From contig JAPXFQ010002083.1 of NCBI GenBank assembly GCA_028564705.1, positions 1-64,000 of the forward strand: a stretch of DNA of 64,000 nt, in the 5' to 3' direction. Positions 25,849 to 59,279 of the stretch are shown here, piece after piece. The notes below the pieces were generated by a model. The model had not been told where the DNA came from. It was given only the letters and a program-made list of their open reading frames with translations, and did no database searches. Made by a program: the position numbers and the translations under genes. This DNA is from Apricaphanius iberus. Taxonomy: Eukaryota > Chordata > Actinopteri > Cyprinodontiformes > Aphaniidae. The first letter of the stretch is position 1, and every line of letters begins with the position of its first letter.

Positions 25849-25879
25849 TTTACCTCTCACTAGCAGTGACAATGTTCAA

Positions 25880-33000: not shown

Positions 33001-34700
33001 CACACAGTATGACAGAAAAAAATGGCAACCAGAATTTAAGAAATACTTCTATTGGAATAGCTAATCTCTCACAGGCGTGGATCAATACTTGTATTCTCAA
33101 GTCACATCAGATTTTCTATAACAACAAATAAGTCTACAAAGTTATCTGACATTTTAGCCTGTATTTTTGTGTTTTATTGATGGCAGTCGGAGAAATGGAA
33201 CAAATGAGGTCTACAAGTTCACTCAAATGCCAAATGGGGCAACATTACATTAAAAAAGCTTCAAAGTCTTTCAAACCTTGTTCCATGAGGATGGGTATGG
33301 TCCACAAAAAGTCCTTTCGGTATTACATTGTGTACAATGTATTCTAGGATTTTGGACCCCAAACTGGCAGAAGCGAGCATACCAGGCTGCTCTCACAAAT
33401 GATTCGTATGTATTCTTATGAAAAGTGATGCACGGATATTCGTACATATTTCCACGAAATTCTGACCCAGGACGCTCCGTTCACATGACGTTTGCTCTGC
33501 AGGCATTCCCTGTAGACTATTTATTATTTTAAAATTAACGTCTACACCAAGCATGAATAAGGTATTTTAAAACAATTTTAGTAAAAGGAAAAGAAAGAAA
33601 CTTTATTCGTGAAGTCATTCCATCTTTAGTTTGCTGTCGAAAATTTCTTAATAAAAAGACAGAAGGGACATTGACTCGTCCAGACGTCACCGCATGACGT
33701 TCAGGTGTCATAATGAAATAAGAACCCCTATCGTTACAAGGTAGCCTACCCTTTACTTTTTAGTAAAATAAATTAATAAATAAAAACAGATTAGATCGTG
33801 TCAGAGTAATGTTTAGATCGCATGGCCTATATGTTAGAAGCCAGGGGTCATGTTATGGCATTTCACTCTGTCAGAATATGAATCCCTCCTATTTTTCACG
33901 TGGAGAGTGCTTTTCACGGCAGTGATGCTTATTTCGGTACAATACTGATTTTTGTTTTTTTAATACGTGACTGCTGCCACTGAGAGCCGTACTTCAGTCA
34001 TTCATCTGTCATCCTCCAACGTAAGTAGATAAGCAGTTTTTATAGCCTATCTATCAAACAAATGAAATATAAAAATGCTAAACTGACAATTTAGAAAGTT
34101 AGTCAGTGTGCAGTAGGATAGCCTAGTTATTTTTTACTTATTTTTCACATAGAAATGTCTGGCTTTGCTAAAGTTGGATGGTTAAAAAAAGCTAATGTCA
34201 GCAAAGAAGCAGAACATTTAAAGGGATGATATCTATAGATACATGAATAGGTGACTTTTCATTTATACAAGCAGTGTGTGTGTGTGTATGTGGGGGGGGG
34301 GGGTAGTCCACTTGTTATATAGGCCTATTATACAATGACCTTTTTTCATTTTTTTCTATTTACTTTTAAGAGATCATCCATCATCATCCGGTAGGTAATA
34401 TTGCTGCCAGATGCATCTGTACATTATGCTCTAATTTGTCACCCTCAGATTTGACTGAATGGTTGATTGACTGATTTACTGATTGACTGTTTACAATATA
34501 AACCTAAAGAGTGACTGAACAACTTAAGATACTGAATATTATAACTGTCTACAATTTGTTGTAGAAGGACTAGTTGAATGCTGATAATTATACAAATAGG
34601 GCTAATTAGATTTTTCTATTGTATGACCTGTTCTGATCATAGAGCTAATGTTTGTTTTTTGTTTTTGATTGTTTTTTCTTTGTTGTTGCTTTTTTGTCAT
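33001..34700. other. Gene-free interval
   Basis: No exon found on either strand. A short (GT)n and poly(G) run lies at 34,274-34,303. The stretch 33,390-33,900 is AT-rich and without recognisable ends. Confidence 0.4.
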
Positions 34701-35489
34701 TTCTCCCTTTCAGCTGGAATGCCAGGCTCAACACTGAAGTCATGTGCATTTTGCAAGCAACAAATTCGTGTTGCCTGCAAAACATGCAAACTATGTGGCC
34801 CAACAGCCTTTAAAGAAAAAAAATAGAACAGGCGAAAAGCAGGATTAACCAGCAATGGGCGAAAAAGCTAAAAGCAGGAGGGAACACCTGCAAGCTTGTG
34901 GATTCTGCCCATATTCTGGTAAGAACCCTCAACATTGTTGGAATGTCAGAAGTTTTGGATTATTTGGCTTAATGTTTGTGACAAAATGTCTATTTTTCAA
35001 AGACATCATTTTTTTACTTCTCTAAAGCTATTCGTATGATTATAAAAAAGGAAAAAATTAAAACAACTGAAAATCTGTAAATGTGACTGGAATTTCAAAC
35101 ATGTTTAGACCTAAATATTTGGTTTGTTTAAAGGCATGCTCAAAAGACACCATAGGAATTTAGGACATTTCAGCCACTAACAATATTAGTCATTTTCATT
35201 TTCAGTTCATCAATTTTGACGAGGAATCTTATTTGTTTGCAGATTCAGAAGTTCAAGATGGCTGGTTTGAACCCAGTTTTACTTGTGTAATTGTTCAAAT
35301 GCAATGTCTTTAGATTTAGCTTTTTTGCAGTCGGTGCAACCATCTAGAGCTTTTGATTTATAAAATCCTAGAAAAATATTTTTGGACTGATTAAATCTTT
35401 GCACTGATTAATTATTGGGATTCATTACTTGGAGACAAGGTGTGAGTAATGTGGCATCAATCCATATCATCATCTATTAAGTTGCATCT

Positions 35490-36095
35490 TAGGCCAGCAG
35501 ATAATATTATACGGGGAGTAAGACGACTAAATGTTATCCACTCCACACGGGAATTTACGCCCCATTTAAGGTCCATTTAAGGTCCCATGATTGCGCAATC
35601 CAATGCAGACCTGTGCATGTACTGGGCATGTGCGGGGAAAAAACAAACACAAAAAGAACACAGATTGACGCGTATAAACTACGTCACAGCCTACATAATA
35701 TAAACAAGAAGCTCTAAAGCACAGTTTATAATATCTCGTTGTCTGAAGAGAACAATGGCTGCTCAGAAGAAGAGAGAATTTGTGGTGTGGACCGACGACG
35801 AGATCGACTTGTTATTAAAAGTGACACAAGAATACAAAGCTGCCATGATGCTGCAAAATGTGGACGCAGCATTTGATTCACGTCGCTGCTCTGATTTAGC
35901 CGGGGACTGGAGAAGTTGCATACAGACGTGCTCATTTAGCCGTTGAGATAACAGTTAGACGGCTCTCTCACCCAGCTAATAATCATCCGGCCACAGACCA
36001 CAAACAACGGCAACTTAGTGTGGACGATAGGGGGGTGTAGACTAAATTGGTATACGTTTAAGGCATTATCCGGACTAGTGTGGACATGGCCTTAG
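35490..36095 (+). mobile_element. PIF/Harbinger-like element with Myb/SANT-like N-terminal ORF
   Basis: The right end reads, inward, GGCCATGTCCACACTAGTCC and GGATAATGCC, a terminus type common in fish Harbinger MITEs. The left limit is approximate. An ORF at 35,755-35,946 begins MAAQKKREFVVWTDDEID, followed by LLLKVTQEYK and a NVD motif. This is the first helix region of the Myb/SANT-like protein that Harbinger elements encode beside their transposase. It stops after 63 codons, so only the N-terminal part remains. Confidence 0.65.
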
Positions 36096-36264
36096 GTTTT
36101 CTGCCGTGCTGATTACATTTTCCTTTTTAAGTCACCCTCAGTTTATGGGAAAAACTACTAATAAGCCTTTAGTGTGGATATCCACAGACACAGGATCCTC
36201 CACGCCACGGGCTCTGCCTCCTAGGTCTGCAGGGTTTACTGCTGTTGTCAAACCAGATGTTTCC

Positions 36265-37130
36265 TGTCAGGCAATCATCACCTCCACTCAGGCCCACCTG
36301 TGCTGCTCTGCAACCATTAGTCTCTGATCCATATATAAGAAGCCCTCACTCACCTCCAACCTGTTCAGTCCTCTGGTCCACCAGCCCTTAACTCCTTCCC
36401 AGTGGTCGTCTCGCCTGCGGAAAACAGCCGACCCTCAGTCCAGCTCCCTCCTGTTCCAGCCAGTCCTGCTCCTGTCAGACCTGACCTGCCTGGTCCTCAA
36501 GCCACATCCTTTGCTTCCTCCAGGTTCTTCCTCCAGGTTCTGCGGCTGAAAGCCTGTTTCTATTCAATAAATCACAAGAACTGCTCTCAGTCTCTGCGTG
36601 GTTATGACAGGATGACTGAACTTGCTTCAAAGGCTTCAGCAGACCTTGAGACTCTCAGAACTGAGGTCCACACGCTCCGTTCCACGGTGGAACAGCTCGT
36701 CTCCAAGGTGGATTCCCTCTCAGAAACGCATGTTCGTCTGGCGGGCCTGGTCCACAGCAGCTCTGCTCCCCGGTTCTGCATGCCAGAGAAGTGGAACGGA
36801 GAGGATGGAAAACCTTATGGGCTACTAGCAGCACAGGACATGCTTTATGAATGTCAGCCTACCACCTATGCCGCCACTGCCTCCAGGGTGGTCCTCCTGA
36901 TGACTCTGCTCACCAGCAAAGCTCAAGAATGGGTGGCGGCTCTTTATTATCAACAATCTCCCCTCTGCAATGACTATTCTCGCTTTGTTGCTGCGATGCG
37001 CAACACCTTTGTTCGCCCTTCCAGTGACATACAGGTTGGAGGTGAGTGAGGGCTTTTTATATATGGATCAGAGACCAGTGGTTGCAGAGCAGCACAGGTG
37101 GGCCTGAGTGGAGGTGATGATTGCCTGACA
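36265..37130 (+). mobile_element. LTR-retrotransposon gag unit bounded by inverted LTR ends
   Basis: The unit begins TGTCAGGCAATCATCACC and ends GGTGATGATTGCCTGACA. The outer 100 bp (36,265-36,364 and 37,031-37,130) are inverted copies with few mismatches. The left side looks like a full LTR of about 345 bp: a TATA box (CATATATAAG at 36,330), AATAAA near 36,567, and an end near 36,609 (TTATGACA). A gag-like ORF follows. The right side is only the inverted first 100 bp of that LTR. The flanks are TTTCC and TTTAC, close to a 5-bp target duplication. This is not a normal LTR-gag-pol-LTR order. Confidence 0.75.
36612..37049 (+). pseudogene. Truncated Ty3/gypsy-like Gag fragment
   Basis: From the Met at 36,612 the frame encodes a heptad-like N-terminal helix (DLETLRTEVHTLRSTVEQL), then a capsid-like region with PEKWNGEDG and a segment ending AQEWVAALYYQQSP. 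This is the layout of Gag in sushi-type Ty3/gypsy elements of fish. The frame runs into the inverted LTR copy and stops, so the C-terminal capsid part, zinc knuckle and all of pol are missing. The longer frame opening at 36,402 reads through LTR sequence and is probably not its true start. Confidence 0.7.
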
Positions 37131-37873
37131 TTTACTTATAATCACAGAACCACACCTAGGTGATTAACACTATTGCTCAAGTTTTTGTAGTTCTCGATAA
37201 CTTTATACTACCTGATCATTTCGAAGACAGCAATACAGTTTACATTGTCTATAAAACAGTAAAAACATATTAGTTGACAGCATTAACTAAGAGAAGTCAT
37301 AGGTAACCGGAGGAAAGAGGCTGAAACATCTGTTCTGATGGACTCTGAAGGACAGATGGACCATGCCCCATTGGAAACTGAGGCCATGGTGGAAAATGGA
37401 GGGGCTTCAATTCTCTTAATACCTTGTGGTAAGAAAGACTAGATGACAAGTACTTACTTATTTACTTTGACCTCCTTCAGAGGTTAAGATTAAATAAATT
37501 CTTTTCAATGTGGGACTCTACACTAGACCCCGAAACTGAACCCCCCACCATGGTTTTTGAAACCACTCCACCTCCAGGGTTGTGTCCCCCACCTGCTTCT
37601 TCATCTCCACTGTACCCCAAACCAGCACACACAGGTAAGACCTCATTGATATAACTTGCAAGTGAAAAACAAGTTAACCCTCCATCATATGCCACTGTTG
37701 CCTGCAGCTACATTAAATTATGAGAACTATTTCCGGTTTAGAACTTTACATCCCTAGCATCTGTGCATTACATGCTAGTCTAGTCTCCTAGTACAGTGAT
37801 TAAAAGTTCTCAAAAGAAAGCATTGTTCATTTTACCATTTGTTCTATTTTATCATTCAACTTATGGTTACAGT

Positions 37874-38520
37874 GGGCCTCATTTATCCAAAATAGTAACT
37901 GTTTCACTGCCACTTTATGTCTATTTAGGTTTTTATTTTTATCTAAGCTACATTATAGGAGAAAAAGAGAGTAACTGTTTTTTTTTCTTCAATTTTTCTG
38001 GAGCTGCGACTATTGAGAAATCGACAATTTGTGGTAGACTTTTGAGTTTGACATTTTGCACCTTATTTAATGACAGACTATCATAAAAAAGGGGATCAGC
38101 ACGCACATCCCTTCCAAAAATATTGGGCCGCCGAAAACATGAATATTGAAAGAAAAAAAAGAAGACTCGCACACTAACTGCACCAATTAAGGCAGTAACT
38201 TTTTAAATCGACTACAATTTGGAGTCCTGCGGTGTGCGAGGTGCCCCTTGTTTATTTAATATGACAGAATATCATGACATAGTGTAGGCATAATTTTTCC
38301 AGATTAGGAATGTTTATTGTTGCCCAAATCTTGAATTTTTTGCGTGTTGCTATGAAGGTTTAGATGGGTGTAAAGTTTACACCACCTCCTGACTTGGTGT
38401 ATATTTTGTGCATACTGTACGCTCACATCCAGATTGATAAATGCCAAAAAGTGTAAATTTTTTGCGTCCCAAACATTTACACCCTGATTTGGTGGTGCGT
38501 AAGTTTGAGAAATGAGGCCC
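37874..38520. mobile_element. Harbinger-like MITE with GGGCCTCATTT termini
   Basis: It starts GGGCCTCATTTATCC and ends GAGAAATGAGGCCC, an inverted terminal repeat. AGT occurs on both sides, compatible with a 3-bp target duplication. Fish genomes carry many MITEs with this terminus. Non-coding. It sits in an intron of the double-CxxC gene. Confidence 0.65.
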
Positions 38521-38687
38521 AGTGAGTCTTGGGATCTGTTTCTTCTTACACAATGTCCCTTTAAGTTAAGAGTAAAGAGGACATTCTAATTATTATAGCT
38601 CCTGACTTTGAGACTATTCTGGTTGACTGCATGATACTTACGTAATATAAAATGTGTATTCGTACATTATGTATCTTGACATCTTTA

Positions 38688-39216
38688 AAGGGACATTGTG
38701 TAAGAATTACTGCCATCTAACATTTAATTTGTGTATCGAATAACAACGAATAATGAAATCTTGCACGTCACCATTTCAAACAAGTGTTGCAGCAACGGTA
38801 GCTGCCCTTTATCAAAAAGCCTCGACAACACTGATTAAATCATGTCATCCATTACTGCAGGGAAATTATTACTATTATCTAGATTATTGGCCTCAAAAGA
38901 ACAATAACAACAACGAAACATGCAAGTTCACTATGGTGTTGTTGACTCTATCCATCAGAGATGGAATTGTGTCTTCAACAAGTCGTATCCATGCTGTGTA
39001 TTTGTTCTGCTCAGCCACTTGTAGTTTCAAGATGGCAAACTGTTATGGCGCCTCCCTACCGGCCGACCTACGTATAAACAAATCTAAAATTCTTCACTTA
39101 GGAGAAAGTGTCAGATTAGTAGCGGAGGTAATAATACACCAATGATAACACATTTATAAATGCAGACATTGAATGTGGCCTGTAAACAACAGGAAATGTT
39201 TAACAATGTCCCTTAA
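38688..39216. mobile_element. TTAA-type MITE with AAAGGGACATTGT termini
   Basis: The left end, TTTAAAGGGACATTGTGTAA, and the right end, AACAATGTCCCTTAAA, are inverted. TTAA-like sequence at both margins suggests a piggyBac/Kolobok-type target. A lone further right end of the same family (TTACACAATGTCCCTTTAA) lies at 38,547-38,565. The reading frame at 38,753-39,145 falls entirely inside this element and is unlikely to be a gene. Confidence 0.65.
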
Positions 39217-41276
39217 ATTTTTTTTTAAATAAAACGGGTAAAATGTCTGTCTTCTCTTCATGATTGTTTTTTCTATTTTCTCTAATTGTACACTAGGACA
39301 CAGAACCACAACCCAAACCATGGTCTCCGAAGCCTCTCCATTTCCTGGGCCACTTGGTAGTATACACATGACCTTTTTTCACATTCAGATTTTTACATTC
39401 ATTAATAGTCTTTTCCACTGTCTAATACATCAGTTTTTTTGTTGTTTTTTTTGCCTACCTGTACAGCAGACCCTGCAACTACAACCCCAAACATACCATC
39501 GGAGTCATAAGGCCCTACTGGCCTGTTTCCCCCACCTTCTACGTCTTCTCCACCATTGCCCCCCCCCCCCCTTAAATGGATTGTAGAGGTCAGACATCAT
39601 GAATGCCACATGCAAGCAACAACAAACCTTGTGGAACAGCACATGTTTACATGAAAATATAAAGAGAGAATCCTTTAAGTTGATCAGCATCCTTGCTCTA
39701 TAAGATTTTAATACTTGATATTTTCTTAACTCAGAAAATGTCTATTTATGCTCAAGAATGTGCAAAACGCTTCCATTTTGACAAAGCTGACATGAGATAT
39801 ATCGGCAATCTGAACTTTTAATAACACCCTTCAACATGTTACATTAGGATAATTGTCTTACTTTTCCTCCAATTCCATAGGTGGCAGCAAACAAGGCAAC
39901 ACAGTGGCCCCCAAAAGGTAATTTTTATTATCTTTATTCATTCTAAAAGAGTTACAGTGTGCACATGAATGCATACATTAGGTGAAGCAGGTGCACGTGT
40001 GTTTACATACCCACCTAGGTATTAAGGATTTTTTTTTCACAATTGTAATTGGTTATAGTAATAATACTCATTAAAAACTAATGCTCATCTCTAACTCTTT
40101 TTCAGACTGTGAATTCCATAACAACATGGAAAGCTATCCCTACACCAAATTTGTGTCACAGAGGAGTCGAAATGTAAGTTTCATTTACAATTGTTTTTAG
40201 CTGAATACTGAATACTTTTGTTGACCATGAGTCAAAATTGTTTATACATATGCTCTACTGTATATGCTACACAAATAAAGGAGATTTATGGTTTTACACT
40301 TCTTCAGTAAAAACTGTATATTAAACAGACATAATCAATTGCCAAATTCAAAAACATTACTTTGATCAAATGCAGGCATGCTCTATAAAGAATTGTATTG
40401 CATCCAAATATTAAAATGGATGATAGACACATACAATTTAAGATCCTGTTATTACATTTGATGTTCTAAATAGGAATTTATAAATCTATGTGGTTATTTC
40501 TTTGAATCACTTCACCTTTCCTTGTTTTTCAGGGGAAAAAGGAGGTGAAAGTTAGGTGGTCCCCATGCCCAAAATGGTATGTATGCCATTCATTGCAGTG
40601 CAACATCCCAAATTCAACGTTGTAATTTAGATCTTAATTGCTGGTTGCTTTATCCATCCAGTCTATCCAAATGAAAGTAAAGCAAGTGTCTTCTTTCCTC
40701 TAGCCACATGAAATGGAAGGACTCGTGGGTGTCCGCAGATGACCTGAATCAAATTTAAATTTAATGGTCTACTGTTGCCATTTTTGCACGTATGTGTTCT
40801 TGTGCTTGTTCTGTAATGTTTTAACTTGTTGATTAAACTGTTTTTAAAAAGTGTTTGGCTTATATGTATTTGACCATTTAAAAAAATATGACAGCCACCT
40901 TTTGAAATTGTTATAATGTAACAGTGAAACGTTTACTGCTGCCATGGATCACTGATTTCATCTTGAGGAGTGGCACACTTCATTCCAACAGTTCAAATGT
41001 CATATTTTCCAACAGATAACTTTCTTAGTTCCTTTTGTTTGAGCCATATGAGCATTTTTGCTGTAGTTGATGAACTGGATTACTCAGTTCACCATCAGTT
41101 GTAAGGAGAGACACAATTTACTATACTGTGGCATTATTTGTGGTTCACTGATGAATGCTACATTACCCAGTCATCCACTATCCCCAATGTGATGCTAGGG
41201 AAGGTAAGGGAAATACCAGGGTTCCTACATTAAAAGGGGTGGCCTCATAGCACATGATGCCAATGGCATCATTACT

Positions 41277-41434
41277 TAGTTTGGACCAGAAGGAACCAGA
41301 ACCTTTTCAGATGAAAGAAGAGCAGCAAGAGCCAGAACATTCCTGGATAAAAGAGGAAGCATTGGAGCTCTGCATTAATGAACAAAAAGACCAGGTTGTA
41401 TTGAAGTGGGAGACTGAAGATACTTGGGTGCCTA
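41277..41434 (+). pseudogene. Isolated exon of a teleost C2H2 zinc-finger-type gene
   Basis: After an acceptor-like 'catcattacttag' the frame reads LDQKEPEPFQMKEEQQEPEH, then IKEEALELC and DQVVLKWETED, before a GTATCT donor-like site. Repeated EPE / IKEEQ-E / LVLKQE-type text is characteristic of the linker exon before the C2H2 finger array in large fish zinc-finger families. No finger exon follows in the window, so it is a stranded fragment. Confidence 0.6.
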
Positions 41435-43170
41435 GGTATCTAGATAAGTTATTCAAATGTTTCGCTTTTTCCAATGCATTGTAAGAATGCATTGTGGTCT
41501 AATCTCAGTTATACCAAATAGGTGAACAATTTTTAAGCTTTATCTTGGAATCTGATAGTGAATTCCAATGTTGAGCAGCCATTGTAATGAGGGGTGTCGG
41601 TCACTCAAAGCTGGATCCACTTAATTCAAAAAGTAATGCGTTATCACTCACTACAACAAAACAATGTAGTGATGTAAAGATTAAAAAGGAAAATGCTTGA
41701 TGTATTCTCATCATTAATGTTGGTGTCAGTTAATGAATCAGTTTATGTCATTATTGACTGAATAAACATTGTTTGAATGCATAAAAAACATTCTGTTGCA
41801 ATTTTACTCATATCTCTGCATGAGGGATCTACATTGTGAATGTGCTAGTGTGTACCATACACAAGATTACATATATTATTAGTTATTCTTTTTAAAGGGT
41901 GGGCAGAAATGATCATAAACCCATTCAAAAGAAAGTTGAAGGGGAAACAGAATATTTGTAAGACGCATGTGGGAGGGAATCCCGAGCCGTTTCTACGTGA
42001 CGTAATTGCTCCATCTTAACCCCCCCCCCAAGTTCTATAGTCATAACCAGCGACACATAGCATGTATCAGATACAATGACGTGTCACTGACCTTCTTTAT
42101 CCTCTTCCTATTGGCTGGTTTGAGTGCCCAAATCGTACATGTCATAGGGAAGCTATAATTGAGGGAACGTTTGGCTAAAATATCTTAAATAAACGTACAT
42201 ATTTATTTTTTCCCACCATGTATCGTTTTGTTAGTGAGTCAGTTATGGTTCGGCTGTATAATATGTTTGAAATATTAAGTGGGCATAGTTTTTAACAACC
42301 CTAACTATGGCCGGAAAAACCGGAAGAAAGTACCAGCCTTCACCTACTTTATTTAATAAAAAGATTATACATTGAAAGTGAACCACATATTTACATTTCA
42401 TTAGTAGATATAATCTAGAGGGACTGCAACAACTACTTCGGCATTATTAGGTTTTTGATAAATCCAATGGATATATAATTTTGTAAACCTACAATTCCAC
42501 CTCCTTTGAAAACCAGATAAACTACAATCATGGCGCTGATCTGTTTTAAGCTGCATGGCGCGGCCATAGTGATTGTAGTTTTTACAAACATCATTTTGTA
42601 CCGAATTTGAATGTGAAAATATTGAATTAACAATCTACCGGGGGGGTTAGAGGGATGCTGAACACAACTGTAGATTCAGATCTTAAAAATTCAAATTGTC
42701 AAATGGGTAAAAATTTGTTTTATCCATATTTGACAGTGCCCCCGGTTGGTGGGTTTAACATACCACATGAGAGCTCAGGTCAAGAGCTCTCAATAACAGT
42801 TGGTCCCATGTCTTTATACCCTTTTGTTGTTGATTTTATAAACTTTAAATGTGAACTGAGGTGAAGGTTCAATGGTCATATTTTCAAAGAAGGAGCCATG
42901 TAGAGAGTTCATACTTCCATATGTTATTCTCCAGATGACGACCTTTCCAAATATGTATTTGGTTTTGGTGAAAGCCAAAGTTTTTATTATTTTTTTCATT
43001 TCATTGTCAGACACATTTAGAAGCTAAGCTTCAGAGAGGATATGCACGACCCAGTATAAAAAAATTATATACTTGTTATTTTCCTTCAATTTTTTTGCAA
43101 AGTACATTTCAAAATATGTCACATTCAGAGTAATAATATTAATCACAATCTATTTAATATACTGTATATC
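41435..43170. other. Gene-free interval with a short palindromic element
   Basis: No exon found. At 42,512-42,594 the words AAACTACAATCATGGC and GGCCATAGTGATTGTAGTTT face each other as an 80-bp imperfect palindrome, probably a small MITE. The stretch 42,880-43,060 is AT-rich without recognisable content. Confidence 0.45.
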
Positions 43171-43174
43171 TTTT

Positions 43175-43756
43175 ATAGTGTCAGATTTAAGGCTCCTGGG
43201 ATGCTGTGCAGACCAGCTCAGTGTGATTGTTCAGCATCTCTTCAACCTGAAGCCTGGACAAAGTACCACTGCTCTGGAAAACATTGTGTGCTACCAGTGG
43301 CAATGCCTGAAGGATTTCCGTGGCTACAGGCCTGCAGCATTACCGTCCCACCTGATGAAGGCTCTGGTGCAGCTGGTTCTGTCCCACCTCCGCTGTCTGG
43401 GGAGCTCATCATTAGATCTGCTGCAGTTTGCCTACCGGTCTAACATCGGGGTGGATGATGCTGTCATCTTCCTCATGCAGAAAGCTCTTTCTCACCTTGA
43501 CACCAGGGGCAGCACTGTTAGGATCATGTTTTATGATTTCTCCAGTGCATTTAACACCATCCAGCCTGCACTACTGGGGGACAGGCTGCAGGACTCTGGA
43601 GTGGACCATCAACTGACATCATGGATCCCGGACTTCCTCACTAACCGTCCACAGTTTGAGGGTATGGGACTGTTTATCAGACTGGATCACCCGCAGCCCA
43701 GGGGCCCTTGTGGGAACTGTTTTGAACCCGTTCCTTTTCAGACTGTACACCTCTGA
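43175..43756 (+). pseudogene. LINE reverse-transcriptase fragment (CR1/L2/Rex1 group)
   Basis: The frame carries the fingers-palm region of a LINE polymerase: CADQLSVIVQHLFNL, then DFRGYRPAALPSHLMKALVQ, LQFAYRSNIGVDDAVIFL, and MFYDFSSAFNTIQP with the first catalytic Asp of the palm. It goes on to LTSWIPDFLTNRPQF, then degenerates before the 'GSPQG' and 'DD' motifs. Both ends are lost. The methionine at 43,073 is in flanking AT-rich DNA and is not part of the element. Confidence 0.85.
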
Positions 43757-44408
43757 CTTGACTGACTAGTTGTAGTTGTACAGTAATAACCTAATAGCAT
43801 TTGTCACCAGACAATTGTCCAGAATATCTTCACAGATTGTACAGTGGTCTTCTTAACCCGGAACTTAATGTAGTTCTCCCAGCCTTCCTTTTTTATTAGA
43901 GATCAACATTGTCATATTACAGACATCATTTCTGTGCCAACATCCGGATTAGCCAGTAAGTTGCATTTCATGGACCGCAGGCTACAAAAGGTAAGGTTGT
44001 TGGCCTATGAGATATTTCCACATATAGTGTCAAACTGCTCTTAAGTCCCTGCCTGTGGTTTTACGAGAGTGTGTGTGTACATGGGCACAAATCAAACATT
44101 TCATGTAAACAATGAACAATAAATGTATTCTAAAAGTACATAAATAACCTATTACGCACTTAGAAACTATAAATTGGCAGCTTTATGGAAACTTAAGCCC
44201 TATATATTCTACATTCAAGAAAGGATGTCATGTTGTTTTTAATCACACCAATACAAATATTGTTTATACTACATCATTATTTTATTATCAACATAGCAAA
44301 ATGTCATTTACAACAGTCAGTTAATAATATAGCAGCTCTAAATTTTGTTAAATGTCTTAAATGCACACACAGACTGAACCCACAACATTATCAATGGCAC
44401 TATTTGTT
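43757..44408. other. Intergenic DNA between LINE fragment and KDZ gene 3' end
   Basis: No exon or terminal repeat recognised. If the KDZ gene is a transposon, one of its ends should lie in or beyond this stretch. I could not pair any sequence here with the far side of the gene by eye. Confidence 0.4.
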
Positions 44409-44411
44409 CAT

Positions 44412-47400
44412 TTAATTTATTGCCTTCATGTCCATATCATCATCTTCATCTGAGCTGCTGTCAAAGTCACATTCTCTGCCTTCTTTATCAAACAACTCAT
44501 CTCCCTCTTCAACACCCTCCACAGATCCAACAAGTCCAGCCTGAATCATTTGCAAGTATTTTCTTTGGACTGTGACAAAAAGAGACTGCTGCTGGAACCT
44601 TCTTCGTTTTAGGTCTTCTTGAAGACCTTGAAGACTTTCTTCAGATAGCCACTGCAGCCTATCTTGATAGTGAACAGAAAGACTTTTAAAGAAAATCATT
44701 CCTGCTGTAGGATCTATCATAAATCAAACTACATTAACAAAACAATGAACAGAGTCACACTGAAAACAACACCCTAAAAGCAGAATCTGTAAGATTTTCT
44801 ATATTAATTGTAGCCTTGGTTTTCCCATGCTACCTTTAATGCAGCATAATTTTTTAATTCACGCTGCTTAGGTACGTCTCATAAGCTGTGTCTCATGACG
44901 TGATCTGGAGTTAGCCAGACTAAATAAATTGGTCAAAAATAACTAAAACTATAATTAGAGAGTTTAAAAACATGTAGTTTATCATTACTCCATATAAGAT
45001 AATTTATTAAATGACTAAGCTTTTGATACTTTTTCGGTGTGGAAAACGTGTAGTCTTTTTTTTCCACCAGAAGTCTGGTGTTGGGAAGAATCACCTTGAA
45101 ATCTCACAGATTCTGCCTTTAATCTTTGGCCAAAATACATACAGCTAATACTTACCTCTAGCACTGATAGATGAGCCACCTAAGGTCTTCTCCCTTTTTT
45201 TGATGAACTCCCAGTGTTGCCTTACTTCTGTAGCAAGGATCATCAACTCCTCCTCTAGTCTAAATATATGCATGACTTTGTCGAAAACCTTTTTTTTGTA
45301 AAGGAAATCCACTCCATCTGGAAATGCATTGACATTAATTTCAATACAACAAAAATTGTACAAACATAAATTACCTTTTGGACCATATAACATATATCCA
45401 TGTTAGAATGTTCAAATAATACAAATCATGTCACATACCAGAGGGTGGTAACTGCCAAGGAAATATATAGCCAGCTTGTAAAGCATTATCAACTGGACCG
45501 ATTAGATCTTTGTGTTGGACCATGTCATCATGCTGAGCTATATAGTTCTGTAGTTGCTGCTTTTCCCGCCAAATACGGCTGCGGATGACAGAGCGTCCAG
45601 TGTTGCTGTCTGTGAGACACCACAAATCAGCTACAGCATGGGAACAGCACATAATCATATGAAATGAAATCTTTAAGAAAAAAAAAGAAAAAAAATCAAA
45701 GGATGAATGTTGTACCTGTTTGGCTATAGAGCCGTGCTTTGCGCTGCCTTAAGCCCAGAGAAGTCTCCTCGATTCTTCTTCTCACTGTGATCAACGAATC
45801 ATCTCTGTCGGCAGGGAGTTCTATACAACACAAAGCACAACGTTTTTAAAGTCACACTCCGATCATGTTTTGAGCAATTTTTATAACATGCTAGGTGGTC
45901 TTTAAATTATGATTATGCTGGGTTTTTTTTTTTTGCCAAAATCACAAAACCTGTGCCGTTTTCTGGGACTTCGCTTCAGCAGAGTGGAGTAGCTCATCAG
46001 CAATTCGGCTCTGCGTTGTGGGCGGAACCATTGGCATGGAGACACCCCCCACCCGCGGTTAGCTGCCAGGCAGGAGGGCAGCTTGATTACAGGGCAGGGA
46101 AGACGAGCTGAGCCGCTGGATGGAGCTACTTGGGGAGCGGGGAAGAGCTGCGGCCGTAGCCACTCGGGGAGCGCTTACTTGGTGGAAGATATTGGAGTGC
46201 CAGGTAAGCAGCTAAAACATTTCTTTTAACTTTCTTGTTATGTTAGCTAATGCTAGAACAAACCCGGTTAGGGCAGCTACTGTTACTAATTATACACTAG
46301 ATTCCTGGTGGAACAGAAACCCCCGCCCACTCGCTGATGTATTGACCTGACACTCCGACGCAGAGTACAAATGTGCAAGCAGCTGGGTTGAAACGTCTTG
46401 AAAGCTAATACCAATATCTCTCCGTGGCGGAGTAGGAGCTTGTGGCCATGCCCAGTGAAGTTACTATGTAACAACTCCAGTATTTTTTAGCTGGCATTTT
46501 AACGTCTGCTACTGATTCACAGCCATTTGAATGCAGAAATACTCAGAAATGCAACTTTGAGCTGAATTTTCTCAAGATATGTCCTCTAGCATCAGAAAAA
46601 TGCCACAAGAACATGTTAACACCTAGAAAAACATGATTTCCATCGGAGTGGGTCTTTAAACGTTTTATAATCTAAGTTTCAATCCTGCCACTGTTGCTTA
46701 AAAGTAAATCAGACATTTCCAATACTAACCATGTTTAGCCCACCCCCGGACATCTCTGACCCACTGCTGTATGGTCTCTTCACTGACAGACATTTCACTC
46801 TTGAGGGTCTCAAGGCTCTGCTTTTCCTTCTGAAGATTTTGCTGTGTCTGTTGGATAAAAATGTGTTCAGTTCTTATTCTGATTGCTGTATGGAACCTTT
46901 AACAAAAAGACAACTAAGATGACAGTTACCTTACGAAGTCGTGTGCATAAGGTATCACACATGTTCTCCACCTTTCTTCTGTTCCAGCTCATGATCTGAA
47001 CAGTCAGCATGTCTGTGCGGGCTGTAAAAGAAAAACAATATCAGAATGTGCTTGACTGTTTCAACAGTGCTTACACTCAACTCTACAATACCTCTTCTGC
47101 TAGGAGTCATGAATTTGAATATTGTAGATATACGTACGACTTAGAAGACCAAAACAAACCTCCTTTACTCATAAACTTGGTATTTATGGCAGTCCTGGAG
47201 AGAAAGGAGTTGACCATTTCGACCTCCTCTCCTAAAGTGGAACCAGCTCCATCCTGACTGCCTCCTCCCCATTTTATCTGGCATTAAGGAAAATGTAGTG
47301 TGGTGCCTTAGTTCACTTAAACAGCCAATGGCGTTGTCATTCTATAATTCACGGTATCCACTATAGTACACTGGATTAGAAATGGAACAATTGCACCTTT

Positions 47401-50400
47401 AGAGAAATTACCTCACACTTTATTCCATGTGCTTTGGCATGGAGCACAGACAGTAAGGGCTTCATTGTGGTGAGCTGATTGTACTCAGGGCAGGTTTCAG
47501 ATATTCTTGTCATGTATGGCCAGTATTTACAGACAACATCCATACAAAAGAAAACTGGCGAGTTCATGGCTGCCACCTCCTTCTGTAGAAACACGGGGTA
47601 GGCAAATATTTCCCCCCTGTAGGGTTGCATTACAACATTAGAGCATACCAACAATACAAAAATAAGAGGCCAATTGTCATTGAATTTGTGACTGTATAAG
47701 ATTATGTGCAGTAACAGTGACAGTTTTTGTACCAGATGTGGGTTGATGTATATGTACCAGAACACAGGTCACTGATGTGCAGTGAACCGAAACACATTGA
47801 GAAAAATTGAAATAGATGGATCTGTAGGGATAATACTAAAAACATACCTGTACATATTCAGCGCACGGAGAATAATGCCATGGCGGCAAACAGCTACTTC
47901 TAGACCCTGACAGAAATTGCATTTTGTAATTTAACCCTATTCAGACATGCCTAAATAAAAACAAATATTCTGGACACCAGAAGTTTGACAACACAATCAT
48001 ATAGAAACTTTAAAAAAAATACAAACATGCGTATTTGTCAGTGTAATACAGATTCAATCTCATAACTTTTTCAGGTCTTTCTGATGAGATGCACAACCAC
48101 ACAATCTGACAATAAAAAAACTCTAAAACTCATACCTGCTCATCAAGGCTGGAGCTATTCCTCTTACTTGAGGTCTCTTTGGCTGCTTTCAGCTGAGATC
48201 TGCCACAGACCCCTTTTCCTGGTACCTACCATCAAGACAAAGTGACCACGCTCATATACAAATGTTGCATTCATCTGTGCTTTTTTACATGTAATTCCCA
48301 GTATGTAGTAGTATATGTAAATCCTTACGTGCTTGGCCCTCGTTTGAATGTCCTCCACAAATGCTGTTACCTCATCATCTCGACAGAGAAGCACACCTTC
48401 AAAGTAACCCCTTTCCTCAGAGCTAGCGAACATGCATTCCAAAATGAATTGGTAAGTCAACCATGAACAGTTGGAATTTCATTTTTGGTGAGTATGCAGA
48501 TTTACAGAAACAGATAACAGAAACACAAATACAAACTTACTGTGCATCCTTTCTGAACCGGTACAGCTTCCGATTTCCATCCACAGACACAGCCAACATG
48601 TGTGGAGTACAGGCTGGACAGGTAAATGGCTCCTCCAAACACAACTTGTCCACCATATTGGAGACAATCACCCACTCCATGAAGCTCTTGTGGAAAGTGT
48701 CAGAGCACACTTTCCCAGTCTGTTGAAAGATTTGTTAAGCCATAATATATACTTTAGACAGTAATACTTAAATGCAGCATTGAAAGTGATGGAACATATG
48801 TACATTTACATCAACACACCCTGCCACACTCTCTTGTTTGAGCTTCCAGCATCCTTATGAAGGCCAGACGAGAGTTACCTGGAGCTGCCAACTTCATTTC
48901 TTTGAATGCACGAAAAACTGCCATATCGAAGAGTGTGCAGAAATTAATAGAGGCAGGCCAGTAACCACTCATCTGAACATCATGTAATCCTGGTGTCCAG
49001 CTCGCACCACAGCCTCCACAGTGCAGCTCTGGGAGGGACAGATCATACCGTCCTGGTGAAAACATAACAATTCATGTTATTGATGACTAAATCCACAGAG
49101 ACAAGACATGGTGGTATAAAGCTTGTGCCGTGGGGTTACCTCGCATGTTGACAAACACCACAGGCCGTCCAGAGATGACAGTGACCCTCTCTGCAGGACA
49201 ATCACAAATTTCCTCTGGCAGTTCCATTGGTAATATTCTAACTGAAAAAGAAAAATGATTCGTTACGCACCAAAACCTGTAGAAATTATTTTATCTTAAA
49301 AAAGAAAGAACTCACAAGTTCAGGTGTTTCTTATTTTGCTCATTTTCAACATTGTGGAATATTAATTAAGACATCAAAGTTACTGAAAAACCCATACAGA
49401 AGTTATAGTTAGGAAAATTGATCTTAAACTCTCAACCATTTTCCTTTGCTTACTGTAAGCATGATCTTAACCAGCTTCATGACATTGTAACAAAGTTGGT
49501 TTTCTAACAGCCCTGAAGGATAGATACTCCTGCAAGACAGTCATTTAAAATAAAGGTGGCTAGTTGAATAAATTAAGATTTGCTCTGTTGCATTTTTCCC
49601 ACTTAATACATTATTTGATTATATAAATTATTCTACAAAGGAGAAAATGAAAAACAAAAAGCAAAACTTTGGAAAATTGGAAGTGAATAAAATTTCACTG
49701 CAACACACAATGAATGCATATACAGACACAAAGTATATATGTTCTACCGCATGTTTGATGTGAATAATGCCCCTTTGCATCACTTATCACCACAACTGTT
49801 GGGGGGAGAGGCATGTGGAAGCCGTTGATCCGGGACGTCCGATTGTGTAGTGAGTTGGACTTGTGATACATGACATCACAATCACTACAGAGGTATTGTG
49901 TGGGCATACATTCAGCACATCTAATTGTAGCTTCTGTCTTTTGGCATCTCTGACAGAGCCGTGGTTTCAGGTAGTTTTCTCTCAGCATACTGTCAAGGAG
50001 CTGAGGTCTGGCTTCCTTCCACCTCTCAGAAGAGGCACTGTTCCTCAGTTTCCAGTCACTGGCTGCTGTTTGAGAGCTGCAGTCAGGGGTGGGATCAGCA
50101 ACACTAGTCTCACTGAGCAGGCCCGTCAGCTCTTTAAGGACACTGTCTGATACAGAGAAAAAAAAGCATTGATAAAGCAAAATCAGACCTGAGCAGTCAT
50201 CCAAAATACTATCAAAATTACAATTTAAGTCAATGAAATAAAATCCCAGGGGGCTAGAGTATTCTCTAAAGGTGAAGTATGAGGCATGCCACCACTGTCC
50301 AGCTACCACTGTGGTGCTACTAATAGGTTCCAACATATATATCAGATTCTAAAGAAAAAAAGGTCCTGGATTAGTAGATCCTCGCAAAAATGTTTTTCAA

Positions 50401-51745
50401 TAAAAAGTTGAATGTCGAAAAATTATCATTCTGACAATTGAAGCTAAATATGCTTTAAGGTATTTGGATTATAAATGGTAAAGACGAAGTGTGCTGCCTA
50501 TACATGCACAAATGGAATCCCTACTGCACCATTTATAACAGTCATTCTATCAGAAAGCATTTAACAATAACCTATGCCAACAAGCTACTCTAGCCATAAT
50601 GTTTATGATTTTTGCAAAAAGAATCACTATTCTACAATGCTAAAAACAACTATTAACTATCCCCATTTTGCTGTTTATAAAACAATATGTGGGCATCATC
50701 TATTAGTACAATTGAGTATTTCAACACATATTATGGCCAGATTGTGCCAAAGTTCATGAGAATCTATGAGAGCCAAGTTGGAAAACTACTTTTCACTTAC
50801 CTAATCTTGCCTCTTGCTCATCAGGCATTTCTACTGAGGGTTCCTCTGGAGCACTGGGTATGACTGATCTGGATTGTTTCACTGTAAAAACAAAGTTCAA
50901 TGTTTAAGTATATCAACAGTACAGGGAAGTGTCAATAAAAATCTCATGTTGATTCATTAAAAGTGTGTGTGCACTATTACACATTTTCAACCCTGTCTGC
51001 AAATTGCAGTGGACTCTCACTACCTTCTTTAGTCCCAATTAGACTCCCCCATTTCCATACGGGGGAGAAGCCTTCAACAGTCCGATGAAGCAAGAAACAC
51101 TTTGCACATTATTGAAACTCAGACATAAGAAACTAACCATGCGAGTTTGATGGAGTCGACTTGATAGTTTGGGCAATGATATTGCCATTATCATCTCGTT
51201 GTCTCCAACGAAATGGATTAGGTCTTGATGTCCTCCTTTTTTTCTTTGTTCCCTAAAAATAACAACACAATCCAAACAATGACTACTGACTACTACAGAA
51301 GCATTTTAGTTATATATATATGCTCTTTCCAGGGCCACTATTGTCAATTTTAGGCAGAGGGCAGATCAAACTCGCCAAAAATGCCAAAAATACCCAATTG
51401 AGTACTCTATTTTTGCGTTCAGCACCATATTATTTTTGTAAACAATGTTAGAAAATGATATCCATAACAGTTAAAGGTTATTTCACAGTGTGTCTTGGTT
51501 ATATCACAATTGGTTCAACTGCTGTTGTTCATTTGAAGTTATCAGCACCGTCTGTGGCTGCATGCTTTGGACATTCTTATAACAAAACCAGACAAATTTC
51601 AAAATCAAGCGTAAACATGTCCATGATTCTCACAAAAAAAGAGGAAAAGATAAAGACATCACATTACCATTGCTGACTTAAGTTGTCCTGCCAGGGTATG
51701 TGCTTCTATGAGAAGGTCATTGAGTTGTGCTGTTTCTGAAGCCAT
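44412..51745 (-). CDS. KDZ (Zisupton-like) transposase protein, 18 coding exons, 900 residues
   Basis: Coding exons, 5' to 3': 51745-51668, 51252-51138, 50881-50801, 50146-49748, 49241-49140, 49052-48820, 48719-48541, 48422-48329, 48225-48136, 47906-47848, 47616-47412, 47277-47160, 47021-46930, 46847-46730, 45820-45716, 45609-45439, 45317-45156, 44713-44412. All junctions are GT/AG, phases agree, and the total is 2,703 bases with one terminal stop. Residues 156-192 form a B-box-like C/H cluster (CQRC, CAEC, CSDC, H, H). Cys pairs follow near 270 (LHCGGCG) and 370 (CPAC). Candidate catalytic residues are D383 (VSVDGNRK), D503 (CMDVVCKYWPY) and a Glu at 562-565 (LGEEVEMVN). A coiled-coil exon lies near 616-655, and the tail is acidic (SSSDEDDDMDM). 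The gene starts after a 5' UTR acceptor at 51,751. Known KDZ proteins share this order. It may be an active transposon or a host gene derived from one. Confidence 0.85.
44777..45120. mobile_element. MITE in last intron of the KDZ gene
   Basis: The left end, AAAGCAGAATCTGTAAGATTT, is the inverted match of the right end, ATCTCACAGATTCTGCCTTT. Non-coding, about 344 bp. It lies wholly between splice sites at 44,714 and 45,155 and leaves them intact. Confidence 0.7.
45847..46658. mobile_element. Non-autonomous DNA transposon in a KDZ-gene intron
   Basis: The terminal inverted repeats are TAAAGTCACACTCCGATCATG and, read inward from the right, TAAAGACCCACTCCGATGGA. The octamer AACGTTTT flanks both ends (45,839-45,846 and 46,659-46,666), indicating a hAT-like 8-bp target duplication. 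A TTAA reading is also possible but explains the flanks less well. The 812-bp interior is non-coding. It occupies most of the 909-bp intron between exons 14 and 15 without touching the splice sites. Confidence 0.8.
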
Positions 51746-51759
51746 AGTGCCTAAACAAC

Positions 51760-54650
51760 CAAAATAAAAGATGACCTCCCCAAGTAGGTAGTTGCTCCAA
51801 CAGGTAAGTTGACATTCTAATCAATGCAGTTGGAATAATTAATGAAATGTACAAGGGGGTTAAGTGTGTGTGTATACATATCACACATGCCACCATATGA
51901 AATAATAATGGTTTAAGGTTGTACATAATTTAGATTACACAGTCTACAAACACAGCCATGACTATACATACACATATACATACACGTCTCCCTGAATCCA
52001 ACCCAGAGGGGTGATGCTAGCATGTTTAATACAATTTTCTTGTGATAATGGGATCATTTATTTAACTATTGCTAGAAATTTTTTTTGTTTTCTTGAAATA
52101 ACAGATTATTCAGATGCTTGGTTCTGAGGGGGCTGAATCTGTTCCTGGACCATCACAGAATTACCACGGGTTACAAACATGCAATCAAACTCGTATCACT
52201 CCTGGCGAAAATTTATAGTTAAATCAGCCTAACATGCACATTTTTGCACTGTGGGAGGAAGCTTGTAAAGAACCTTCACATTGATGAAGAGCATACAAAC
52301 TCCACACAGGTTGACCCCAGAAACCTACTTCTTGTTAATGTAGGAATCGTACAAATAAAAAATGTGCATTGGCGAAATATTAGTATTATCGTTATTATAC
52401 ATATATTGTCTTTTATTGAGTGTGTTTGGTCTGCTGTGAGCAGCGCTGGTTTCCAGTCTAACTGTTGCTGGGATCAATGAGCTGCAATAGCTCCTTCATG
52501 CTCCCGATGCAGCAGTCTCTGAATGAGCTCTGCAGGGCTGTCTGTGTTTGGGTGGGGTGTCAGCGTAATGAGATCTTAACCAATTATGTTCTTGTCTCCC
52601 GCCACCTCAATTGGTGGGTCCAAGAGACATTCCACTACAGAGCTGTTCTGCACTGGGATGTCTCAGTGAAATCAAGCTAGCAACAGATGCAAGCTGATGT
52701 CAGATGGAGGAACATCGATCACTGATCATATATCCGGATTTTACTTCTATCAAGTCTGACAAAGGCGGTAATTGCAACGTATCTGATATATTTTTATCAA
52801 CGAAATGACACGAAAAGTAGCTGGAAATCATATGTAACACATACTTCATACAAATAAGTTAGAAACCTTCACACGAAAAGTAAAGTTACTTACCAAATAA
52901 GTTATTTTCCACGAAAGTAGAAAGTAAAGTTACTTAAATACGTTGTTTTGTTTAATAGTCTTTTTTCTCTCTCTCTTATTTATTTATCTAAGGTATATAT
53001 TTTATATTTTTTTTGTTTTGTGTGTCATTTGATGCATTTGCTTGTGTAACATGCATTACTTAAATAAAGTTCTTTGAAAAAAAAAAAAAAAAAAACCTTG
53101 AGACTCAAGAGCGGGAGATGGTTACATCAGGCTGGAAGACTACAGAGTTGGACTCTAGACAGACTGGATGATCGCTGGTTAGATCAGTACTGGTGTGAGG
53201 AACATGGACGTCTGATGTGAGGTGAGTCAAAAGCCTTTTATTTTTTTTTTTAGGGGATCTGAATTTTCATGATGACTTTGTGACTGCTTTTTGCTGGATG
53301 TGTTGTTAAGATAAGCCCTCTCCCTCCTCCGATGGTAATGGAAATAACACAATATCAGGCCGTATTGATCCGACCCATTTGGGTCTTATTATATTGATCT
53401 GTTTTCTCTACTCGAGATGTTTCTGCATCTAAAGGGATCGTTGTTGAAAAACGGGGTAAAAGTCTCTCAACCACGGTCTTCTGGCTGAAACTGGCAGCAG
53501 CCTACGTTAGCTTCAGTTAGCTCCCAACTAGCTTCTGACTAGCTTGTAGCTACGTCGGCTCGGAGTGTTAACCCTCCGCCCCCAGCCTCAAAGCGCCACT
53601 CTCAGCTCTACCTCTTTGCCCATTTTTGGAGTTTCTGAGAGTGACGAGGCGAGTGACGTGAACAACATGGCGGTGATGGGAACCTCCCAACTGGCCTCAT
53701 TTTTGTTATTCAGAAACCTATGGGGGACGTGCCGGAAGGTTAGTCCATTGTTTTATACAGTCTATGGTTATATCTAGTGTCTTTATAAAAGAACCAAATA
53801 AATAATTACATTTGTGAATAAGAAGACATAATGAACGTAATAAAAGAAAAAGTTACAGTGTCCTTTAAAAAAAGTGATATTTGTATTGACGTTTTAATAA
53901 TTATTTTCAATAATTATTTCTATTTTTAATGAAACATGACATAAATAGCTATTTTGCCTAATAATGCAAGGTAGCAGCTCTGTCTCATTCCAATGTCAGC
54001 CCATTCTCTGTCGCTCATCGCTCCTCTCAAGCAGCGAGACCGCTGTCACCGTAAAGTACCAAATAAAAGCGCACTACAAATGTAGGTGTGGCTCACTTGA
54101 TTATGGACAAACGAAATACAGTTGGCTTGACCGCAGTTTTTAACTGGTGGGGACAAAACTATAATTAATAAGTAATGCCGGGGAAATGTCCACGGTTTTA
54201 AAAACGGTTATGTTCACAGCCTACTTTCCTACAGGCACCCCAGAAAATAGCCGCGTGATAAAACACAAACTGATGACTTAACAGGTGTTGTGCCATAAAG
54301 TGATCGTCTGCCAAAATCTGATCAGGCGCCGCAGGAGCGCGCATGGCTTAGGTTTCTGCATTTCTCGACTTACCTCACAAAGATCGCGTCTTAAAATTAG
54401 GCAAATCAAACATTATCGACATCGAAATATTACAAATATCCCCGTGAAGTACTTTAGCAGATGTTTGTCTTCGTTTAATATCTTTTATTTTCTCCAGAAA
54501 TGTGACGTTTTTTATGTTTCAGAAGTTGTTTGAAACGTATCATAAAGGACCACATGCCAGAATGTAACTGAAAGATGGTTTGTAGTACAGATATGCTCTC
54601 TGTAAGATATTGATATTAATTTAAAATTAACATAACATAATGCTGCTGCA
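51760..54650. other. Upstream of KDZ gene: repeats, one poly(A)-ended insertion
   Basis: No coding exon supported. At 52,240-52,320 'tgggaggaagc' and 'gcatacaaactccacacagg' form a degenerate version of a motif dispersed widely in vertebrate genomes. At 53,063-53,096 AATAAAGTTCTTTG is followed by about 20 A, the signature of a retrotransposed 3' end. Its body upstream is not recognised. The stretch 53,270-53,770 ends in TTATACAGTCTATGG, a fish MITE-like terminus. Confidence 0.45.
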
Positions 54651-56052: not shown

Positions 56053-56945
56053 TCAACAGACAAACTTTGGAAATAGGCTGGTCCACTTGATGCCCTTCTG
56101 CAGCAGCATGTCGTTAAGCTGTGTCTGATTCCATTGTTCAATAGCCACCTTTAGCTTCCGTTCTGCTCCAACAAAGTTTGTTCCGTTATCATAGCGTATT
56201 TCCCGGACCTGTCCCCTTCTGGCTATAAAGCGTCTGAGAGCATTAACAAAGGCATCAGTGTCCAACGATGGCGCCACCTCAATATGAACAGCCCTTAAAG
56301 CAAGGCAAGTTAACAGAACGCCATTCTTTTTACAACACTCCTCCTGCTTTTCACCTCAAATGGGCCAAAGTAATCCACTCCAACACAGGTAAATGGCGGC
56401 TGGTCTGGATGGATTCTATCCTTAGGCAAATCTGCCATTTGCTGACAAACGAGGGAAATATTTTGTCTTCTGCAAATAATGCATTTTGATAGAATCCCCT
56501 TTATTGCAGTAGTTGCTCCAGTAATCCAATATTTCTCACAGAGTCTGGATAACATATGATTTCTACAACTATGGCCAACTTCCTGGTGAATATGTTGGAG
56601 TAGTAGGGTGGAGATGTGAAGCTCCTTTGCCAGAATAACTGGATGTTTTGACTCTGCTGGCATAGATGATCTACTGAGCCTAGCACCAACTCGCAGGATT
56701 CCATCTTTCAGTGTTGGACATAATGTATACAGACGACTGGATTTATTTACATTCTCCCCTCTCTCCAGACTCTTGATCTCCTCTGCAAAGCATTTATTCT
56801 GACACAACTGTATTATTGCAAGCTCCGCCTCATTAAGATCTTCCACAGTGAGGTGGCTTGGCTCGTACTGTGTCTTCAATGCGCTTAACGACTCCTCAAA
56901 ATGTTTCTGTTCTCCCAAATTTTTGTTGCTCGGTACAGAGCTCAT
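56053..56945 (-). pseudogene. BEL/Pao integrase region, internally deleted
   Basis: The zinc-binding HHCC part is present (IHQEVGHSCRNHM, KCIICRRQ), then the first catalytic Asp (CVGVDYFGPFEV). After a break near 56,310 the second Asp motif follows (YDNGTNFVGAERKLK). Translation then passes abruptly from KGIKW, near 56,085, into what looks like the extreme C-terminal residues of pol (KVCLLIEAE in a shifted frame) and a stop. The segment with the third catalytic residue and the C-terminal DNA-binding part is deleted. Confidence 0.85.
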
Positions 56946-58572: not shown

Positions 58573-59279
58573 TGGACCAGCTCTACACCCTCGACAGGGT
58601 CCTGGAGGGTGCGTGGGTGTTCGCCCAACCGGTCTACATGTGCTTTGTGGACTTGGAGAAGGCGTTCAACCGTGTCCCTCGGGCTGTCCTGTGGGAGGTA
58701 CTCCGGGAGTATGGGGTACCAGGCCCTTTGATACGGGCTGTTAGGTCCCTGTATGAACGGTGTCAGAGTCTGGTTTGCATTGCCGGCAGTAAGTCGGACT
58801 CATTTCCAGTGAGAGTTGGACTCCGCCAAGGTTGCCCTTCGTCACCGGTCCTGTTCATAACATTTATGGACAGGATTTCTAGGCGCAGCCACGGCGTGGA
58901 GGGGATGCGTTTTGGTGACCTCAGGATCGGGTCTCTGCTTTTTGCAGATGATGTGGTCTTGTTGGCTTCATCTGAACGTGATCTACAGCTCTCGTTGGAA
59001 CGGTTTGCAGCCGAGTGTGAAGTGGCTGGGATGGGGATCAGCACCTCCAAATCCAAGACCATGGTCTTGAGCCGGAAAAGGGTAGAGTGCCTTCTCCGGG
59101 TCGGGGGTGAGGTCCTTCCTAAAGTGGAGGAGTTTAGGTATTTTGGGGTCTTGTTCACGAATGAGGGAAAAATGGAGCAGGAGATCGATGGACAGATTGG
59201 TAAGGCGTCTGCAGTTATGCGGGCGCTGTACCGGTCTGTCGTGGTGAAGAGAGAGCTGAGCCGAAAGGCAAAGCTCTAA
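58566..59279 (+). pseudogene. Rex3-like reverse transcriptase, 3' segment
   Basis: The plus-strand frame starts in the palm: LDQLYTL, MCFVDLEKAFNRVPRAVLW with the first catalytic Asp, LRQGCPSSPVLFITF, and LLFADDVVLLASS with the catalytic FADD motif. These motifs are intact. A stop at 59,277 interrupts just after SRKAKL. The remaining C-terminal part reads on, in part in another frame, from 59,331 (TRSRIQAAEMSFLRRVAGLS, then HLGIPPEELAQVAREKEVW) to the tail. With its 5' part inverted it is inactive. Confidence 0.9.

Follow-up and report, generated by a model that had tools for sequence, protein, structure and literature searches.

The first 64,000 nucleotides of contig JAPXFQ010002083.1 of the fish Apricaphanius iberus (GenBank assembly GCA_028564705.1; this whole stretch is referred to here as the window) contain a long gene on the minus strand, split into many exons. 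It is very probable that this gene is the transposase of one copy of a fish DNA transposon of about 20 kb belonging to the KDZ superfamily, with CxC3 and B-box-like clusters placed before an RNase H-like DDE core. The element is real and can be regarded as an ordinary member of this known superfamily.

Exon chain and protein of the transposase gene

Reading of the minus strand from 51745 to 44412 yields 18 exons with GT/AG borders and consistent phases that together form 2,703 nt, corresponding to 900 codons and a single terminal TAA, and every element of the gene structure proposed by an earlier, sequence-only reading of this DNA was thereby reproduced exactly, including the intact frame. The same exons contain 44 and 67 stops in the two other frames. 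A dynamic-programming gene model based on generic splice and codon weights, to which no exon list was supplied, returned a 17-exon chain in which both borders were identical for 12 of the 18 exons (5-14, 16 and 17), while exons 1 and 2 were absent, exons 3, 4, 15 and 18 were shortened and one false exon was placed within intron 14. When three acceptors were varied, 36 combinations of borders remained open, only one of which gave 2,703 nt. Among the borders, the 5' end of exon 18 is the least secure: several in-frame acceptors are present there, and the majority of aligned homologues have a gap of at least 7 residues at this point. Alignment of homologues backs the chain at its N-terminal end (Pleuronectes P0002) and all the way to its acidic tail (Misgurnus P0003), and at the level of sequence the eighteen-exon model can be considered confirmed. 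The notion that open stretches happen to fit together into this chain by coincidence could appeal to the several in-frame choices at some borders, but it is hardly credible, given that annotated fish proteins align along its length, that Pfam matches cross joined exons and that splice sites are retained in most aligned copies of the element; coding by chance was ruled out by this homology.

The identity of the protein as a KDZ transposase, suggested earlier from sequence features, is borne out by a Pfam match to KDZ (PF18758; E=6.9e-30, 104.8 bits against a cut-off of 26.6) at residues 378-598. It is preceded by a match to CxC3 (PF18804; E=3.1e-13, 49.9 bits, cut-off 26.6), which takes the place of the CxC2-like cluster that had been expected. 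The anticipated cysteine clusters are present and their spaced Cys/His residues are nearly invariant among homologues, although the B-box matches fall under the Pfam cut-off. The candidate DDE residues D383, D503 and E562/E563 are conserved in the homologue alignment, and a model of a homologue (P0004), rather than of the window protein itself, displays an RNase H-like core fold together with long C-terminal helices, in agreement with the coiled coil proposed before; the acidic tail is likewise present. The protein may accordingly be described as having the acidic residues and predicted core of a KDZ transposase, with predicted catalytic activity. CxC7 was not among the nine Pfam families listed with E<=1, a range in which the filters of HMMER discard the majority of matches with E over about 0.1, and in the genome CxC7 was found at two short partial places. 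A profile search of solved structures gave seven weak matches, mostly zinc fingers, the best with E=0.075.

Among the closest fish proteins, all uncharacterised, are LOC115586188 of Sparus aurata (72% identity over 72% of the query) and LOC128444819 of Pleuronectes platessa (71% over 56%), and the window protein groups with these two, with support of 100/100, in a tree of the window protein and 44 proteins chosen from 121. Among the 13 species represented by at least two listed rows, 11 are split in this tree and two, Dissostichus eleginoides and Pleuronectes platessa, stay together, a scattering that is as expected of multicopy elements. A search aimed at longer KDZ proteins, of the fungal and Zisupton-proper kinds, gave one fish protein from 2,892 candidates.

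Copies, termini and target duplications of the element

Comparison with the animal's own genome (1.195 Gb in 1,979 contigs), a check on copy number that had been put forward with the earlier reading, revealed at least 11 other copies or fragments of the transposon, a count that is a lower bound. Parts of the gene, including intron sequence, occur at eight other places, on contigs C1355, C1924, C127, C1929, C937, C771, C110 and C153, and three further places (C1156, C86 and C735) hold other parts of the element.

The ends of the element were delimited by means of these copies. On the left, similarity in C1924, C127 and C1355 begins in each case at window position 33383, and on the right C1355, C937, C127 and C1929 stop at an identical place, with the right tip found on seven contigs. 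The tips read 5'-CA..TG-3', and full copies measure 19,560 bp (C127) and 21,948 bp (C1355). The terminal inverted repeats (TIRs) are imperfect and about 65 bp long, with 50/67 identical columns in C1355 and 48/65 in C127, and in either copy none of 1000 dinucleotide shuffles equalled the score. Target duplications of 7 bp flank all three copies that were read at both ends (AACCTCT in C127, ACCAGGG in C1355 and GCTCTTT in C1924), the eighth base matching in one of the three. In these other copies, the element thus has the ends and target duplications of a mobile KDZ transposon. An inverted-repeat search around the gene and matching of the right tip within the window gave nothing convincing, and the TIRs were missed at first because little of the right tip survives in the window copy, the inverted repeats are inexact and the left end is 11 kb past the gene. 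In a plausible mechanism, the spliced transposase would bind the imperfect inverted repeats, cut the element out and paste it at 7-bp staggered cuts. The multi-intron layout is a property of the family rather than the outcome of host capture.

Within the element, nested retroelement remnants were recognized by Pfam, namely a DUF4939 open reading frame (ORF) at 36339-37049, which we take to be gag-like, and a reverse transcriptase fragment at 43028-43756. In a Pfam scan of ten other element pieces, just two matches exceeded the cut-off, and each was to a retroelement-type family. Two stretches near the left end (34727-34919 and 35755-35945; Table 1) are possibly the remains of a second element gene, judging from their sequence. 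A plus-strand ORF at 41251-41440 has no Pfam match and recurs in C1355 and C127; presumably it resembles the exon that encodes the acidic N-terminus in C2H2 zinc-finger genes of fish, and it is possibly host sequence captured by the element. Outside the element, an open TRIM-like ORF of 514 amino acids (RING, coiled coil, PRY, SPRY) lies at 24328-25872 on the minus strand, and a relative at 76-86% adjoins the C1929 copy, while integrase zinc-binding and reverse transcriptase fragments are found to the right at 56313-56945 and 58617-59279. Rfam and tRNA searches of the window gave no match.

Table 1. Features of the transposon copy and its transposase gene in the window.
Feature	Position	Strand	Basis
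Whole transposon copy, ~19.6 kb with nested insertions	33383..52945		Similarity to other copies
Left terminus CAGGCTGCTCTCACAAATGATTCG... and left inverted repeat	33383..33460	+	Start of similarity in C1924, C127, C1355; TIR measured in C1355, C127
Decayed exon, possible second element gene, C-x2-C..C-x2-C motif	34727..34919	+	Frame disrupted in window, C127, C1355, C1924
Short ORF, Myb/SANT-like (weak)	35755..35945	+	Myb_DNA-bind_6 E=0.18, below cut-off
Exon 18, acidic tail and stop	44412..44713	-	Exon chain, homologue alignment; 5' border least certain
Exon 17	45156..45317	-	Exon chain
Exon 16	45439..45609	-	Exon chain; one alternative in-frame acceptor
Exon 15	45716..45820	-	Exon chain; further in-frame acceptors exist
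Exon 14, helical region	46730..46847	-	Exon chain; helices in model of homologue P0004
Exon 13, KDZ domain ends	46930..47021	-	Exon chain, Pfam
Exon 12, candidate catalytic E562/E563	47160..47277	-	Exon chain, homologue alignment
Exon 11, candidate catalytic D503	47412..47616	-	Exon chain, homologue alignment
Exon 10	47848..47906	-	Exon chain
Exon 9	48136..48225	-	Exon chain
Exon 8	48329..48422	-	Exon chain
Exon 7, KDZ domain begins; candidate catalytic D383	48541..48719	-	Exon chain, Pfam, homologue alignment
Exon 6, CxC3 (residues 224-330)	48820..49052	-	Exon chain, Pfam
Exon 5, CxC3 begins	49140..49241	-	Exon chain, Pfam
Exon 4, B-box-like Cys/His cluster (residues about 152-194)	49748..50146	-	Exon chain, Pfam, homologue alignment
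Exon 3	50801..50881	-	GT/AG, phase match
Exon 2	51138..51252	-	GT/AG, phase match
Exon 1, start codon	51668..51745	-	GT donor, ATG; seen in 4 aligned copies
Damaged right end	52817..52945		Homology stop at 52920; AATACGTTG possible remnant

Decay, selection and mobility of the window copy

All five other copies that were read across the gene (C1355, C127, C1924, C937 and C1929) are broken by lost exons, insertions or deletions, lost splice sites or the presence of stops, with C110 and C153 read in part only and C771, C86, C1156 and C735 lying outside this exon test. The window copy, which has the fewest private coding changes, holds the sole open frame among the six copies read across the gene, most likely because it is the least decayed. 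With counting restricted to sites at which two or more other copies were in agreement, the window exons carry 16 private changes, of which 1 is silent, 15 are replacements and 0 are stops, whereas neutrality predicts 27% silent, 69% replacement and 4% stop changes (p=0.054 for the silent count). They fall on codon positions 1, 2 and 3 in numbers of 5, 7 and 4, without an excess at the third position. The private coding changes hence show no sign of constraint on the protein, and purifying selection of the kind that domestication would leave was not observed.

It could be argued that the gene is a domesticated host gene, that is, a transposase kept by selection for a cellular function, since its 900-codon frame is open where five other copies are broken and its private changes are fewer in exons than in introns; moreover, genes derived from Zisupton have been reported in fish and other vertebrates (PMC3424704). 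Against this stand the eight other places with gene parts and intron sequence and the three with other element parts, the ratio of silent to replacement changes, and the failure of the rows of 11 of 13 species to form one group in the tree. The host-gene reading is thus improbable; the number of copies, the introns that they share and the balance of silent and replacement changes led to its rejection.

Several observations nevertheless weigh against the gene being simply the transposase of a decaying transposon copy. Private changes in the window are rarer in exons (16/2498) than in introns (64/4039; Fisher p=0.0007, with no correction made for testing four copies), a deficit that was not significant in C1355, C127 or C1924. 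Such a shortfall might be a hint of constraint, yet all but one of the 16 changes in the window exons replace an amino acid. Raw counts for two broken copies, C937 (14/942 in exons vs 46/1697 in introns) and C1929 (17/1036 vs 25/1051), tend in the same direction, and the shortfall may therefore not be a sign of function. The probability of remaining intact by luck is modest, at P=0.54 for acquiring no stop (0.22 at the intron rate) and P=0.054 for acquiring no insertion or deletion; chance may have kept the frame free of such damage, in a copy picked for being open. In addition, the flanks of the window copy do not match each other, so that it shows no target duplication. Finally, a base-by-base comparison of window 34001-42192 with contig C1929 gave 99.9% identity at equal contig coordinates (37434-42189 was also located at equal coordinates in a separate search), after which the two diverge inside the element. 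A rearrangement or a branch in the assembly may account for the join at 42192, and the identity itself may reflect a shared contig start, an assembly branch or a recent duplication. Since the gene is situated on the right-hand side of this junction, its frame is unaffected, but the pairing of the left and right halves is open to doubt.

The right end of the window copy is damaged. Its homology to other copies ends at 52920, and a search of the window with the terminal 165 bp of C1355 gave no match at E<=1 other than 13 bases at an unrelated place. A 9-bp sequence, AATACGTTG, at 52937-52945 is a possible remnant of the tip, a call that rests on its position, as such a 9-mer occurred somewhere in 28 of 100 window shuffles. 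The window copy itself is probably immobile, with most of its right tip gone, and it could still supply transposase to other copies if expressed. For the same reason we consider it unlikely that the element is recently mobile and still autonomous, a reading that can draw on the intact transposase frame with every splice site present and on close relatives, as the window is matched at 97-98% identity by parts of the copies in C110 and C1156 and at 99% by a 231-bp fragment in C771. The three long copies, however, show 94-96% identity over a 1.9-kb core piece, element pieces longer than 1 kb span 89-98% (outside the stretch shared with C1929), and the possible second element gene is disrupted in frame. 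The sequence-only reading had taken the intact frame to imply recent mobility or a host role; neither follows for one copy of a multicopy family that has lost most of its right terminus and the private coding changes of which show no constraint on the protein.

The families that look recently active are instead three other KDZ groups in this genome (L001-L008, L045/L047-L049 and L060-L062, with 8, 4 and 3 loci compared), the copies of which are about 99-100% identical over 3.3 kb (2.8 kb at one locus), and these are likely to have been amplified recently, as judged from their identity. Some near-identical KDZ loci are equidistant from contig starts (C103, C1116 and C1728), and part of them may be assembly duplication.

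Placement among KDZ elements

Zisupton elements are large transposons, and the label Zisupton-like that had been given to the present gene holds at the level of the superfamily and fails below it, as there is no CxC7 match and the target duplication is of 7 and not 8 bp. As described in print, Zisupton of platyfish and other fish resembles our element in its KDZ domain, TIRs, multi-exonic gene and fish host, and differs in having 8-bp target duplications (PMC12730594) and a CxC7 cluster in a protein of at least 1,393 amino acids (PMC12062965), compared with CxC3 and 900 amino acids here. On the other hand, two fungal Kyakuja families share with it 7-bp target duplications and 5'-CA..TG-3' ends, but as described there they are without TIRs and carry a TET/JBP gene (PMC12730594), whereas this element has imperfect TIRs and gave no TET/JBP match among the ten pieces scanned. 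The fish proteins of Sparus (LOC115586188) and Pleuronectes (LOC128444819), compared as proteins alone, have the same combination of CxC3 and KDZ in shorter gene models of 651 and 614 amino acids.

The number of exons, which had seemed unusual for a DNA transposon, has precedents, since Zisupton has been described as multi-exonic, with families of 18 and 31 exons on record; the 18-exon family, from the nematode Pristionchus pacificus, encodes 1,166 amino acids, and no target duplication was found there (PMC9297572). In another KDZ family of A. iberus, L001-L008, block borders fall near the same residues as in the window gene (about 336, 396, 428, 546 and 584-591), but residues 428-547 form a single block, whereas two introns interrupt this region in the window gene. 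The introns therefore appear to be largely characteristic of the family, some of them having been gained or lost.

With its 7-bp duplications, CA..TG ends, weak TIRs and CxC3, the element fits neither Zisupton nor Kyakuja fully. A tentative proposal, which we hold to be somewhat doubtful, is that fish CxC3-KDZ elements are a lineage distinct from Zisupton, an animal branch of Kyakuja type (7 bp, CA..TG) that has so far been lumped with Zisupton. KDZ transposases resemble ordinary vertebrate genes and are annotated as uncharacterised proteins, and a long, intact gene of many exons amid repeats need not be a host gene. An element delimited by its ends, TIRs and 7-bp duplications provides a handle for classing the large fish CxC3-KDZ group, whether or not it is a branch apart from Zisupton, and recently active elements may be represented by the three KDZ families of this genome that have near-identical copies.
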